DNA of 47,401 nucleotides from Thermosipho sp. (in: thermotogales). GTDB taxonomy: Bacteria > Thermotogota > Thermotogae > Thermotogales > Fervidobacteriaceae. A model generated the notes under the pieces. It saw only the letters and a list, made by a program, of their open reading frames with translations, did no database searches and was not told where the DNA came from. Position numbers and translations under genes: made by a program. Shown piece after piece: positions 19,598-24,248 of the stretch. The number at the start of each line of letters is the position of its first letter. Position 1 is the stretch's first letter. The DNA lies in NCBI GenBank assembly GCA_030153605.1, contig JASKLO010000010.1, positions 1 to 47,401 on the forward strand, in the 5' to 3' direction.

Positions 19598-19630
19598 TTT
19601 GCTTGTATCGTTAACCAAATGGTAACTTTG
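19598..19630 (+). repeat. Degenerate direct repeat, right copy, with an imperfect palindrome
   Basis: Matches the copy at 18598. It also contains GTTAACCAAATGGTAAC (19610-19626), an almost perfect inverted repeat just upstream of the tusA promoter region. It could therefore be an operator, a remnant of decayed coding sequence, or both. Confidence 0.35.
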
Positions 19631-19655
19631 TAGAAACAAATTAATTGCTGCTAAA

Positions 19656-19664
19656 TGCTATAAT
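19656..19664 (+). promoter_or_regulatory. Possible extended -10 upstream of the tusA operon
   Basis: TGCTATAAT is a perfect extended -10 motif, but no convincing -35 lies upstream. TATACT at 19733-19738 is an alternative closer to the gene, also with a poor -35. The start of transcription of the sulfur operon is therefore unresolved. Confidence 0.35.
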
Positions 19665-19772
19665 TTATTTAGATAGTGAAAAAAATCTCAACATTGTACT
19701 GAATATTAGTGTAAAAATACATTTTATCTAATTATACTTGTGAAAAAAATCTTTTGGTAGGAGGTGGGGTAT

Positions 19773-20015
19773 ATGGCAAAGTATGAGGTTACGAAGACTA
19801 TTGATGTAAGAGGAGAAGTATGTCCTGTTCCTGATGTTGAAACAAAAAGAGCGTTGAAAAAGATGAAACCAGGGGAAATTTTAGAAGTTTTGATTGATTA
19901 TCCAATGTCAAAGGAAAGAATTCCTGAGACAGTAAAGAAATTAGGACATGAGGTATTGGAAATTGAAGAAGTTGGAGAAAGTGAATGGAAAATCTATATT
20001 AAAGTTAACGGCTGA
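19773..20015 (+). CDS. tusA: TusA-type sulfur carrier protein
   Basis: 80-residue TusA/SirA fold protein. The active cysteine is C17 in RGEVCPVPDVETKRAL, the standard CPxP motif that carries persulfide. The second half has the conserved DYPMSKERIPETVKKLGHEV. ATG at 19773 follows GTAGGAGGTGGGG. It heads an operon with a YeeE/YedE transporter and DsrE-, DsrF- and DsrH-like proteins, so it probably passes sulfane sulfur imported or mobilised by those partners. Its sequence is strikingly like the C-terminal domain of the regulator encoded at 23679-24248. Confidence 0.92.
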   Translation: MAKYEVTKTIDVRGEVCPVPDVETKRALKKMKPGEILEVLIDYPMSKERIPETVKKLGHEVLEIEEVGESEWKIYIKVNG

Positions 20016-21022
20016 TGGGGGTGATCGAAGAGGCATTTTTAGGCATAGTATTTGGACTTATATTTGGAATTATTCTCCAAAGAGGTCGTATATGTTTTAA
20101 CTCAGCGTTTAGAGATGTAAAACTTTTTAAAGACAATTATCTTATGAAGTTTGCTGCTTTAGTAATTGGGCTTCAGATTCTTACATTTTTGTTTTTTGCA
20201 CAAATGGGGTGGATTACATTAAACCCTAAACCTTTTAACTGGGTTGGAAATATAATTGGAGGCTATTTGTTTGGCATGGGTATGGTTCTTGCAGGTGGTT
20301 GTGCATCAGGTGTTACATATAGGTCAGGTGAAGGTATGACAACTGCTTGGTTTGCGGCAATTTTTTACGGATTGACAGCATATGCAACAAAAGCAGGAGT
20401 GTTTTCTGGATGGTTAAAATGGATTTCAAAATTTAGTGTAACAGTTGAATATACAGAAGGATTGTATGCAACAAAATCAGGCCCTACTTTATCTTCACTC
20501 TTTAATATAAATCCATGGATAGTTGGTATTATATTTGCAGCAATTCTCTTTTGGTATGTTTTCGGTACAAAAACAACAGAAAGAAGTACAAAACTTAATT
20601 ACAAAATAGCTGCAGTAATTCTTGCAATATTAGCTCCCCTTGCATGGATGTCAAGCGCAGCTTCTGGAAGAAACTATGGATTTGGTATCACAGGTGGTTG
20701 GATTAATTTGTTTAAAGGATTTCTTACTGGATCATCATTGAATTGGGAAGGTTGGGAAATCTTAGGGATTATAATTGGTGCTATGATTTCAGCAAAGTTA
20801 GCTGGTGAATTTAAATTAAGAATGCCAAAAAAACCTATTACTTATCTTCAGGTAATGGTTGGTGGAGTTTTAATGGGATTGGGTGCTGTTACAGCAGGTG
20901 GATGTAATATAGGACACTTTTTCACCGGTGTACCGCAAATGGCAATTAGTTCTTTACTTGCTTCTTTATTCTTTATCCTCGGTAATTGGACAATGGCATG
21001 GATTTTGTTTGGTAGGGAATGA
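20015..21022 (+). CDS. yedE: YeeE/YedE family thiosulfate/sulfur-compound transporter
   Basis: 335-residue membrane protein with about nine hydrophobic segments, matching the YeeE/YedE (TsuA) family that imports thiosulfate or related sulfur species. Conserved cysteines appear in GRICFNSAFRD near the N-terminus, in LAGGCASGVTYRSGEG near residue 93, and in the mirror motif TAGGCNIGHFFTG near residue 303, as expected for a duplicated fold. ATG at 20015 overlaps the tusA stop (TGATG); a GTG six bases downstream is an alternative start. YeeE and TusA are frequent neighbours and are thought to hand over sulfur. Confidence 0.9.
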   Translation: MGVIEEAFLGIVFGLIFGIILQRGRICFNSAFRDVKLFKDNYLMKFAALVIGLQILTFLFFAQMGWITLNPKPFNWVGNIIGGYLFGMGMVLAGGCASGVTYRSGEGMTTAWFAAIFYGLTAYATKAGVFSGWLKWISKFSVTVEYTEGLYATKSGPTLSSLFNINPWIVGIIFAAILFWYVFGTKTTERSTKLNYKIAAVILAILAPLAWMSSAASGRNYGFGITGGWINLFKGFLTGSSLNWEGWEILGIIIGAMISAKLAGEFKLRMPKKPITYLQVMVGGVLMGLGAVTAGGCNIGHFFTGVPQMAISSLLASLFFILGNWTMAWILFGRE

Positions 21023-21034
21023 GGAGGAGATAAT

Positions 21035-21388
21035 ATGAAGATTACAATACAAGTCATGGTGCAACCATATACATATCAGGATTTGGATACAGCCATAAAA
21101 ATTGCGGAGGCAGCTTTGAAAAAAGGCCATGAGGTAACAATATTTTTGTTCTGTGACTCAGCAATAGCTGCAAATAAAAATATGAAACCAGTAAGAGGGG
21201 ATAGAAATATTTCACAACTTTTGAAAGAACTAGCAGACAAAGGAGTAAAAGTAGAAATATGTGGAATTTGTATGGATTATAGAGGAATTACAACAGATAT
21301 GATAATTGATGGTTCCAATCCGAGTGGACTTCCAGAGCTTGCAGAACTCATATATACAAGCGATAGATTTATAAGTCTTATGGCGTGA
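21035..21388 (+). CDS. DsrE/TusD family sulfur-relay protein
   Basis: 117-residue DsrE-like protein. The fold starts MKITIQVMVQPYTYQDLDTA, and the candidate sulfur-accepting cysteines are in VEICGICMDYRGI near residue 76, the place of the TusD/DsrE active cysteine. GAGGAG precedes the ATG. Together with the next two genes it forms a DsrEFH-like set, which in sulfur oxidisers and in tRNA thiolation passes sulfur between TusA and a DsrC/TusE acceptor. No DsrC is encoded in this window. Confidence 0.85.
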   Translation: MKITIQVMVQPYTYQDLDTAIKIAEAALKKGHEVTIFLFCDSAIAANKNMKPVRGDRNISQLLKELADKGVKVEICGICMDYRGITTDMIIDGSNPSGLPELAELIYTSDRFISLMA

Positions 21389-21399
21389 GGTGAAAAATA

Positions 21400-21756
21400 A
21401 TGGAAAAAAAGGTTTTGTTTGTCGTTTACCAATCTCCTGTTGGTTCAATATGGGTCAATGAGGGCTTTAGAACAGCTTTTGGAATGTATGGAGAAGATAT
21501 CGAACCTTCAGTAATGTTAATTGATGCTGCTACGGTTGCATTATCTAAAGATACTTCACCAGAATCTTTGGGGCTTCTTCCAATAAAGATAGTTCAAAGG
21601 TTTATAAAAAGATATGAAACACCAGTATATGCACTTAAAGAGGACATAGAAAAATACAAAGTTAAAAATATAGATGAAAATTTTGGTGCACAATTTATTA
21701 AAAAAGATAATCTTTCTGATTTCTTCCATCAATTTGACTTGGTTATTTTTATGTGA
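21400..21756 (+). CDS. DsrF/TusC family sulfur-relay protein
   Basis: 118-residue protein beginning with KKVLFVVYQSPVGSIWVNEG and FRTAFGMYGEDIEPSVMLI, typical of DsrF/TusC subunits, which have the DsrE fold but no catalytic cysteine. This protein in fact has no cysteine. It presumably forms a hexamer with its DsrE- and DsrH-like neighbours. Spacing to both is about a dozen bases, with Shine-Dalgarno sites. Confidence 0.82.
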   Translation: MEKKVLFVVYQSPVGSIWVNEGFRTAFGMYGEDIEPSVMLIDAATVALSKDTSPESLGLLPIKIVQRFIKRYETPVYALKEDIEKYKVKNIDENFGAQFIKKDNLSDFFHQFDLVIFM

Positions 21757-21768
21757 GAGGTGATTTAA

Positions 21769-22038
21769 ATGGCTTTAGTTTTAATTAAATATGGTATAAA
21801 CAACCCTGTTGAAAAGTTGAAAATAGAAAGTGCAAAGGATAATGATTCTGTAGTTTTAATACAAGATGGAGTATATTGGAATTTGCAAGATTTATCCAGT
21901 CTAACAAAGGCAAATATTTATATATTAAAAGAGGATTTTCTTGCAAGAGGATATAAAGAAGATGAAGCAAATCACAAATTAATTGATTACGATGGGTTTA
22001 TTGAACTAGTAGAAAAAGAAGAAAAATTTATAGGCTAA
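21769..22038 (+). CDS. DsrH/TusB family sulfur-relay protein
   Basis: 89-residue protein with the DsrH/TusB pattern: ALVLIKYG at the N-terminus, DSVVLIQDGVYW in the middle and IYILKEDFLARGY, then LIDYDGFIELVEK. The usual cysteine of this subunit is missing, so only the DsrE-like partner seems redox competent. GAGAGGTG precedes the ATG. A hairpin overlaps its stop codon and separates it from lpdA. Confidence 0.8.
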   Translation: MALVLIKYGINNPVEKLKIESAKDNDSVVLIQDGVYWNLQDLSSLTKANIYILKEDFLARGYKEDEANHKLIDYDGFIELVEKEEKFIG

Positions 22039-22063
22039 CGGGGAGATTTCCCCGTTAGTTTTT
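22035..22063 (+). terminator. Intra-operon terminator or processing hairpin before lpdA
   Basis: CTAACGGGGA (22035-22044) pairs perfectly with TCCCCGTTAG (22049-22058) around GATT and is followed by TTTTT. The lpdA start codon is only 18 bases beyond the T-run, with no room for a promoter in between, so lpdA must rely on read-through. The hairpin may tune its level relative to the dsr genes. Confidence 0.8.
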
Positions 22064-22080
22064 AAAAAGGAGGTAAAGAA

Positions 22081-23424
22081 ATGTACGAAGCAATAGTGAT
22101 AGGAGGAGGGCCAGGTGGATACGTTGCAGCGATAAGGCTTTCACAACTTGGAAAGAAAGTTGCAATTGTAGAAAAAGAAGAATTTGGAGGTACATGTACT
22201 AACAAAGGTTGTATTCCCACTAAAGCTTTACTTACTACCTCACATCTTTTTTCTGAAATTAATGAAAAAGCTAAAAAATTTGGTATTTTAGTTGATAATG
22301 TTTCATATGATCTATCTTTAATTATGAAACACATGCAAAAAGCTGTTTCCATGTCAAAAAAAGGCATCGAATTTCTAATGAAAAAGAATAAAATAGATGT
22401 ATTTAAAGATAAGGCAATATTAAAGGATAAAAACACAATATTACTTGAAAAAAGTGGGAAACAAATACAAGCTGAGAATATTGTACTTGCCCATGGTTCT
22501 GTACCAAATATTTTTCCACCTTTTGATAAGGTAGAAGGTATATGGACAAGTGATGATGTATTTAAGATGGAAAAACTACCACAATCTTTATTGGTAATAG
22601 GGGGAGGAGTAATAGGAGTAGAATTTGCAACATTTTTTTCAAGTTTTGGTGTTGATGTAACAATAGTAGAGCTTGCAAATCATATTTTGCCATATGAAGA
22701 TAATGATGTAGCAGAAGAAGTGAAGAAAGGATTGGTAAAGAATAAAGTAAAAATAATTGAAGGAGAAAAGGTAGAAGAAATAAAAAGAAGCGAAGACAAA
22801 TACATTGCAAAGGTAGCAGAAAAAGAAATAGAGGTAGAGAAAATATTACTTGCTGTGGGAAGAAAACCTAATATAAGTGAAGATATAAAATCAATAGGGA
22901 TAGAGATAGAAAGAGGAGTAAAAACAGACAAACATATGAGAACAAACATAGAGAACGTATATGCGGTAGGAGACATAAGAGGTGAAATAATGTTAGCTCA
23001 TGTGGCAATGTACGAAGGAATAGTAGCAGCACACAATATTGCTGGGCAAGAGATTGAAATGGATTATTCAGCAGTTCCGTCTATAATCTTTTCAAATCCA
23101 GAAGTAGCAAGCGTAGGAAAAAAAGAAAAAGATGTGGAAAAGGAAAAAGTTAATATATATAAATTCCCAGTATCTGCAAACGGTAGAGCAAGAACTATGG
23201 AAGAAAAATTGGGATTTGCGAAGGTAATAGAAGAAAAAGAAACAAAAAAGGTATTGGGAGTGGCAATAGTCTCAGCAAATGCGACAGATATGATAATGGA
23301 GGGAGTATTGGGTGTAAAATACAATATGACATCCCATCAAATAGCTGAAGCAATACATCCTCATCCAACCCTAACTGAAACACTACTCGGTGCTTTTGAA
23401 GGTAACTTTGCAATTCATATTTGA
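22081..23424 (+). CDS. lpdA: Dihydrolipoyl dehydrogenase-like flavoprotein disulfide reductase
   Basis: 447-residue FAD/NAD enzyme. The FAD motif GGGPGGYVAA is at residues 8-17, and the redox disulfide reads GGTCTNKGCIPTKA (CxxxxC; classical Lpd has CLNVGC). The NAD motif is GGGVIGVEFA near residue 176, FAD motif YAVGDIRG is near residue 299, and the C-terminal catalytic HPHPTLTETLL is present. It normally reoxidises dihydrolipoamide on an E2 or H protein, but no lipoyl-domain gene lies here. Its place after tusA-yedE-dsrEFH points to a sulfur role, as in lipoate-dependent sulfur oxidation. AAGGAGG precedes the ATG. Confidence 0.88.
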   Translation: MYEAIVIGGGPGGYVAAIRLSQLGKKVAIVEKEEFGGTCTNKGCIPTKALLTTSHLFSEINEKAKKFGILVDNVSYDLSLIMKHMQKAVSMSKKGIEFLMKKNKIDVFKDKAILKDKNTILLEKSGKQIQAENIVLAHGSVPNIFPPFDKVEGIWTSDDVFKMEKLPQSLLVIGGGVIGVEFATFFSSFGVDVTIVELANHILPYEDNDVAEEVKKGLVKNKVKIIEGEKVEEIKRSEDKYIAKVAEKEIEVEKILLAVGRKPNISEDIKSIGIEIERGVKTDKHMRTNIENVYAVGDIRGEIMLAHVAMYEGIVAAHNIAGQEIEMDYSAVPSIIFSNPEVASVGKKEKDVEKEKVNIYKFPVSANGRARTMEEKLGFAKVIEEKETKKVLGVAIVSANATDMIMEGVLGVKYNMTSHQIAEAIHPHPTLTETLLGAFEGNFAIHI

Positions 23425-23650: not shown

Positions 23651-23687
23651 GACGCTCTTTTTTAAACAAAGAGCGTCTTTATTTTTG
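23651..23687. terminator. Terminator between lpdA and the convergent HTH-TusA regulator
   Basis: GACGCTCTTT (23651-23660) pairs with AAAGAGCGTC (23668-23677) around TTTAAAC, followed by TTTATTTTT on the plus strand. On the minus strand an AT-rich tail follows. The 220 bases between lpdA and this hairpin hold no recognisable gene. Confidence 0.8.
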
Positions 23688-24248
23688 TATAAAAATTTTT
23701 ACTTCTCCAGCTTTTTCTGAAAATTTTGCAAGTACTTTTGAGCCCATTTTTGAAACAGAAATTGGGATTCTTTCTGCAGATAGTGGATAATCTACAATTA
23801 CAAGCAATATTTTCCCTTTTTCAAGTGTTTCCAACATTTTTCTTGTTTTAATATCTGGAACCGGACAGATTTCTCCTCTCATATCAAGAATATAATCAGC
23901 GTTGAAATTAGCATGTTCTTTGGTTATAAAACAATATTTTAAGTTTGTACTATCAATTACATGTTCTCCATTTACTTCATTAAGAAATTCCATTGCTTTT
24001 TCAATGAGTTGAAATATTTTTGTCGATGAAAAATCAAAATATTCTACTCCTTTAATTCTTTTAGATTTTAATATACCAACATTTTTTAATTGAACAAGAT
24101 GTCGATAAATTGTTGAGATATCTTTGTTTAGTTTATTTGCAATTTCTGATGTAGTAAGATAATTATCAAAAATTGTCATTAGTATTTCAAGTTTTGTCTG
24201 ACTGGAAAAAATTTTAAAAAGATAGTGAAGAGTTAACTTCTTTTGCAA
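23679..24248 (-). CDS. Winged-helix transcriptional regulator fused to a TusA sulfur-carrier domain
   Basis: 189 residues. The N-terminal ~75 form an ArsR-like winged helix (TKLEILMTIFDNYLTTSEIA, NKLNKDISTIYRHLVQLKNVG and the wing ILKSKRIKGVEYFDF). After a helical linker, residues ~118-189 are a complete TusA domain with C128 in RGEICPVPDIKTRKML and VDYPLSAERIPISVSKMG. This half is clearly paralogous to the TusA at 19773, retaining the carrier cysteine. I start at TTG 24248, five bases after AGGAGGG; the open frame upstream has no site. It lies convergent to the tus/dsr operon and is a natural candidate for its sulfur-sensing regulator, the CPxP cysteine acting as the sensor. Function is inferred. 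Confidence 0.85.
   Translation of the reverse strand: MQKKLTLHYLFKIFSSQTKLEILMTIFDNYLTTSEIANKLNKDISTIYRHLVQLKNVGILKSKRIKGVEYFDFSSTKIFQLIEKAMEFLNEVNGEHVIDSTNLKYCFITKEHANFNADYILDMRGEICPVPDIKTRKMLETLEKGKILLVIVDYPLSAERIPISVSKMGSKVLAKFSEKAGEVKIFIQK

Follow-up and report, generated by a model that had tools for sequence, protein, structure and literature searches.

An ArsR-TusA fusion protein encoded beside the thiosulfate operon of Thermotogota: a candidate sulfur-responsive regulator

The fusion gene and its neighbours

We analysed a 47,401-nucleotide stretch of Thermosipho DNA (the window), in which a presumed thiosulfate operon (tusA-tsuA-dsrE-dsrF-dsrH-lpd; 19773-23424, plus strand) converges with a gene for a two-domain protein (23679-24248, minus strand). 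The operon opens with a stand-alone TusA of the TsuB type (19773-20015, plus strand; Pfam TusA, 2.6e-26), followed on the same strand by tsuA, encoding a thiosulfate transporter of the YeeE family (20015-21022; NCBIfam ThSTportTsuASprch, 578.8 bits against a cut-off of 400), a dsrE/tusD-like gene (21035-21388; Pfam DsrE, 1.9e-26), a weakly matched dsrF/tusC-like gene placed by its position (21400-21756; NCBIfam TusC, 0.005, below the cut-off), a dsrH/tusB-like gene (21769-22038; TIGR03011, 4.3e-16, over the cut-off) and, last, lpd for a dihydrolipoyl-dehydrogenase-like flavoprotein (22081-23424; TIGR01350, 536 bits). In many of these genomes, such a flavoprotein gene is the final gene of the thiosulfate operon, and it accompanies the fusion gene when both leave the operon (L166); its product may be the reductase of the pathway.

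The convergent gene encodes 189 residues from a TTG start, as delimited by its open reading frame, Pfam domains, alignment and an AlphaFold model. GGAGG lies immediately 5' of the TTG, and orthologues start at the same position (with TTG in L033 and L034, and ATG in L036); the alternative is a longer ORF of 199 residues that begins with ATG. The initial annotation had read this gene as a winged helix followed by a full TusA domain, and this was borne out: both domains score over curated Pfam cut-offs, the AlphaFold model (mean pLDDT 85.7) contains a confident winged helix, a confident TusA fold and a low-confidence linker, and Foldseek matched one half of the model to SmtB, CzrA and HlyU and the other to TsuB and TusA. 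The linker spans residues 93-117 (23898-23972, minus strand), with pLDDT below 50 at residues 102-112.

The N-terminal half (residues 7-92; 23973-24230, minus strand) groups with the ArsR/SmtB factors by its HTH_5 match (Pfam, 1.7e-8, 34.6 bits against a cut-off of 22) and by its SmtB/CzrA/HlyU fold; its matches in the PDB are HlyU, SmtB, CzrA and SqrR. The helices and strands of the model place the recognition helix at about residues 44-56 (DISTIYRHL...), and its motif ST.YR.L is conserved in the fusions. SoxR, sHdrR, SqrR, BigR and HlyU sense sulfane sulfur through two cysteines of the ArsR domain (PMC12423496); across the 36 aligned fusions, we found no conserved counterpart of the alpha2/alpha5 sensor cysteines of the SoxR/SqrR/BigR type. 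At two loci, a second, stand-alone ArsR-like gene with 30-31% identity to the HTH half lies directly upstream of the fusion gene (L155, 8784-9032; L157, 3455-3694).

The C-terminal half (residues 118-189; 23682-23897, minus strand) is a TusA domain of the TsuB type, as indicated by Pfam (3.9e-17, 62.3 bits against a cut-off of 28.6), the DYPxSxERI signature and its clade, and alignment and Foldseek likewise recover the TusA fold and CPxP cysteine of the family. That cysteine is C128 (codon at 23865-23867, minus strand), correctly numbered in the initial annotation, invariant in 36 of 36 fusions and the sole cysteine conserved in all of those aligned, including an independent fusion from Firmicutes. 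Also kept, at 97-100%, are D122, G125, the remainder of the CPxP motif, D153-Y154-P155, S157 and E159-R160-I161. The DYPxSxERI signature is common to TsuA-linked TusA (TsuB type) and the fused clade, and is absent from the other TusA types compared; most other positions that are conserved in the stand-alone carrier have drifted in the fused domain. From this pattern of conservation we infer that the fused TusA probably kept its chemistry and lost its carrier contacts. The cysteine of TsuB carries persulfide and perthiosulfonate, and TsuB splits thiosulfate (PMC11073785); thiosulfate decomposition and binding to TsuA have been demonstrated for the YeeD of S. thermophila only (PMC11073785).

Descent and distribution of the fusion

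One other TusA domain was found in this 98%-complete genome: the stand-alone protein at 19773-20015. The initial annotation had taken the fused domain for a copy of this TusA, encoded 4 kb away. Paralogy held: the two share 43% identity and belong to separate, old clades, so they are ancient paralogues rather than products of recent copying. In the TusA-domain tree (few columns, root uncertain, three truncated fusions labelled as fusions, long outgroups excluded), the main fused set forms one clade with support of 100/98, apart from the stand-alone domains, indicating an old fusion rather than one built afresh from the adjacent gene. A common origin of this main clade with the divergent fusions L053, L054 and L056 was not rejected (p-AU 0.17).

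Intact fusions occur in 36 of the 103 Thermotogota genomes searched, T. maritima among them, and fragments (a remnant, a broken frame or a contig edge) in four more. In nearly all of the Thermotogota loci examined, the fusion adjoins tusA-tsuA-dsrEFH(-lpd), in one of five arrangements: convergent and after lpd (the window, L033, L036, L155-L158), antisense between dsrH and lpd (L037-L039), sense between dsrH and lpd (L040, L159-L165, L168), sense after dsrH without lpd (L041-L052), or upstream of tusA (L053, L056). One genome (G093) carries a fusion-lpd unit and the tus operon on different contigs (L166, L167), another (G012) has the fusion and the operon on two contig ends, and four have a tus operon with no fusion nearby (G041, G044, G052, G064). 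The link to tus/dsr genes in other genomes, which had been set beforehand as a check on the idea of a dedicated regulator, is therefore kept through several rearrangements, and its survival of so many of them is strong evidence for a shared function. In T. maritima (G031), whose stand-alone TusA matches TM0983 (PDB 1jdq) without a difference across the aligned region, the fusion lies downstream of dsrH in the same direction. There, yeeE (tsuA) is 42.6-fold up with thiosulfate and only slightly up with elemental sulfur, and the dsrE and tusA homologues belong to the same transcription unit as yeeE (PMC9431562).

Two smaller features of these loci deserve mention. A GC-rich hairpin followed by T-rich sequence occupies the gap between dsrH and the fusion at L043, L044 and L046-L052, a layout suggestive of a partial terminator that would reduce expression of the putative regulator. 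In G077 (L170, 6773-7429), what is left of the tus operon is a tusA with CHVP for CPxP and a fragment of tsuA, and only the TusA part of the fusion is present; regulator and operon seem to have decayed in step, unless the assembly is at fault.

Outside Thermotogota, the Firmicute G137 has an independent ArsR-TusA fusion whose TusA is of another type (L154, 7418-7960). Oriented divergently from it are dsrE-dsrF-dsrH, genes for a GCV_H-type protein and a lipoate ligase, and two radical SAM genes (L154, 2715-7296, minus strand). Its relative G125 has a separate ArsR gene (52% identical) and tusA (53%) around dsrEFH (L194, 8646-11279). Judged from its sequence, the G137 protein is gene-fusion evidence outside Thermotogota for an ArsR regulator and a TusA acting together. 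It was the one further full-length fusion among the sampled genomes of six groups (299 Firmicutes, 201 Chloroflexota, 249 Proteobacteria, 247 Spirochaetota, 54 Caldisericota and 197 from the phylum of Candidatus Methanoperedens), at cut-offs of 1e-14 to 1e-16 that weaker, distant HTH-TusA pairs would escape. A scan of genome contigs with TusA-specific patterns returned fusions from Thermotogota only, and a plasmid search returned TusA-domain matches only, mostly yedF. An apparent fusion in G428 (Chloroflexota) proved to be an HTH gene followed by a separate tusA gene. The literature searched contained no report of an ArsR-TusA fusion, an absence that does not prove novelty.

Conserved boxes in the tus promoter

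Two conserved elements, Box A and Box B, lie upstream of tusA. The region 19600-19772, proposed earlier as the target of the regulator, does contain a candidate operator whose occurrence follows that of the fusion and the state of its recognition helix: Box A, at 19610-19627 (plus strand; GTTAACCAAATGGTAACT; 17.9 bits), which is conserved in fusion operons with the consensus TTTACCAAAtyGTAA and is followed after 31 bp by a predicted -10 hexamer, TATAAT (19659-19664, plus strand). When each operon was scored with a matrix built without its own family, Box A was present in 30 of the 32 main-clade fusion operons, with at most 1 of 60 shuffles scoring as well; this count ignores shared descent, and the two operons without a clear Box A (L040, L168) count against our preferred reading. 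The exact dyad TTAC-N6-GTAA, a candidate operator for an ArsR-type homodimer, occurs in 12 of 30 tus promoters against 0.15 expected, all exact dyads being counted. The consensus of each box was first seen by eye and hence seeded, a circularity against which the dyad count, the left-out scoring and the shuffles guard. In the window, Box A exceeds 12 bits at 19610 only. As a simple pattern it has 1.19 matches expected by chance in 47 kb, so a single match is unremarkable; what speaks for Box A is its conservation and position.

Box A scores at chance in all four Thermotogota operons that lack the fusion, and likewise ahead of the divergent fusions L053 and L056; at fusion-less TsuB-type outgroup loci, mostly from other phyla, it reaches at most 9.1 bits. 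Fusions with Box A upstream of the operon all retain ST.xR.L, and three of the four fusion operons lacking the box have a changed recognition helix (L040, L053, L056; Fisher p = 0.0007, shared descent ignored); the exception, L168, has the usual helix, yet no clear Box A. In G093, the box lies ahead of tusA, with 19.5 bits, and also ahead of the separate fusion-lpd unit, with 13.8 bits, where 3 of 100 shuffles scored as well. At the fusion gene's own promoter in the window, where we looked for autoregulation, no box rose above chance, which also counts against the preferred reading. In the search for a wider regulon, a genome-wide pattern with one mismatch gave background-level matches and the extra exact matches examined lay inside coding ORFs (L202, L209, L218), so none was found.

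Box A has its end 30-31 bp upstream of the -10 hexamer in 24 of 29 promoters. At the usual spacing, the tus promoters show no -35 better than random; the distance between Box A and Box B is variable. Activator-dependent promoters typically show a fixed phase to the -10 and a missing -35. The fixed phase of Box A without a -35 is thus activator-like, and it fits the strong induction by thiosulfate.

Box B has two copies in the window: a Rex-like dyad at 19674-19692 (plus strand; TAGTGAAAAAAATCTCAAC; 21.7 bits), similar to the T. maritima Rex operator, and a second copy at 19738-19756 (plus strand; TTGTGAAAAAAATCTTTTG; 14.5 bits), just 5' of the ribosome site. Only these two positions, both in the tus promoter region, exceed 13 bits in the 47 kb. 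The exact dyad GTGA-N6-TCAC is present in 9 of 30 tus promoters against 0.1 expected, and the left-out matrix found Box B in 32 of 32 main-clade fusion operons, in either orientation, in the interval from promoter to start codon (at most 1 of 60 shuffles as good). It also stands at L055, L083, L171 and L172, and it occurs at fusion-less operons of Thermotogota and of a Caldisericaceae MAG (Caldisericota). Applied to the T. maritima Rex operator known from a crystal structure (TM0201), the Box B matrix gives 16.4 bits; the best of 2000 shuffles reaches 9.3. Since Box A tracks the fusion, whereas Box B is fusion-independent and Rex-like, we provisionally attribute the first to the fusion and the second to Rex. 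The resemblance of Box B to a Rex site suggests that the operon is probably under double control, and its place before thiosulfate-uptake operons predicts Rex (NADH) control of thiosulfate uptake.

Proposed mode of action and relation to known systems

Our data make it very probable that the fusion regulates the tus operon. We further infer that it likely binds the candidate Box A, that it senses through C128, which the evidence favours somewhat less firmly, and that it activates rather than represses, towards which the evidence leans slightly. On balance, we favour a reading of the fusion as a one-component regulator of the adjacent tus operon, responsive to thiosulfate or sulfane sulfur, probably an activator, and acting through C128 and Box A. 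An ArsR-type dimer would sit on Box A, the centre of which falls near position -51 of the tus promoter, with the TsuB-type TusA domain on its flexible linker serving as the sensor. Entry of thiosulfate would lead to a sulfane-sulfur or thiosulfonate adduct on C128, derived either from thiosulfate directly or from TsuA, TusA or DsrE, and the adduct-bearing fusion would switch on the operon (tusA/tsuB-tsuA-dsrEFH-lpd), to which the Rex-like Box B would add NADH control.

ArsR proteins are usually repressors, so we keep repression as the leading rival: the fusion would occupy the tus promoter without sulfur and be released when C128 is loaded, as are SoxR, SqrR and BigR. The HTH half is indeed closest to ArsR proteins that include HlyU and SmtB/CzrA, and related sulfur-responsive ArsR proteins repress (PMC12423496); however, the fixed distance between Box A and the -10 hexamer and the missing -35 would be unneeded for a repressor site, and we consider repression unlikely, if still a serious competitor. 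Less likely again is a docking switch, in which the TusA half stores no sulfur and binds TsuA or DsrEFH, the regulator being held or freed by the occupancy of its partner. YeeD (TsuB) binds YeeE (TsuA) with the CPxP cysteine at the contact (PMC11073785), the TsuB signature is retained in the fusion, and in Hyphomicrobium SoxR receives a signal from a YeeE-family protein (PMC11582611), but the fusion has lost many positions of the stand-alone carrier outside the active site. It is most improbable that the fusion acts on Box B and that another factor owns Box A: although Box B lies between promoter and start codon in every one of the 32 fusion operons, in either orientation, it is also present at fusion-less operons of Thermotogota and Caldisericota and matches the crystallised Rex operator. 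Finally, a non-sensing protein, whose winged helix merely tethers a sulfurtransferase or has lost DNA binding, is scarcely credible, since the intact TusA active site would permit a transferase role but the fusions keep the recognition helix (ST.YR.L), and in three of the four fusion operons lacking Box A this helix is altered.

The fusion would also be a candidate regulator for the strong thiosulfate induction in Thermotoga, where thiosulfate reduction is incompletely understood. The Thermotogota fusion suggests that cells can detect sulfur compounds by means of a copy of their carrier protein, and the covalent joining of ArsR and TusA, in T. maritima and separately in a Firmicute, is gene-fusion evidence that both act together. 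A reasonable, if tentative, extension is that these proteins form a class of one-component regulators, arisen at least twice, in which a sulfur carrier serves as the sensor of an ArsR protein; its Thermotogota member would be a thiosulfate-responsive activator near -51 that, with Rex, couples thiosulfate uptake to supply and redox state.

Several known systems share parts of this design. Rex, an NADH-sensing repressor, is unrelated to the fusion and not encoded in the window locus, though its operator would explain Box B in the tus promoter. TsuB/YeeD, the partner of TsuA/YeeE, resembles the fusion in its TusA fold, CPxP cysteine, DYPxSxERI signature and adjoining tsuA; however, TsuB is a free 80-aa carrier or enzyme, whereas the fusion's domain is joined to a DNA-binding domain and many of its surface positions have drifted. 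The sulfane-sulfur-responsive ArsR repressors (SoxR, sHdrR, SqrR, BigR, YgaV and HlyU) share the ArsR fold, a place beside sulfur-metabolism genes and a proposed sulfane-sulfur signal, but they have two ArsR-domain cysteines, neither of which is conserved in the fusion, with its TusA domain instead, and they repress, whereas the candidate site of the fusion suggests activation. In Hyphomicrobium, SoxT1B, of the YeeE family, passes a signal to SoxR, an ArsR repressor; TusA is the proposed sulfur donor, and whether TusA hands sulfur over to SoxR is, according to the authors, not yet answerable (PMC11582611). SoxT/SoxR is the best-studied case of how regulators learn of thiosulfate, and the fusion offers a single protein for testing such a hand-over. 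SoxT1B, TusA and SoxR of Hyphomicrobium denitrificans likewise bring a YeeE-family protein, a TusA and an ArsR regulator into one thiosulfate pathway; there they are separate proteins and the role of TusA is only proposed (PMC11582611), whereas in the fusion two of these parts are combined in a single polypeptide.
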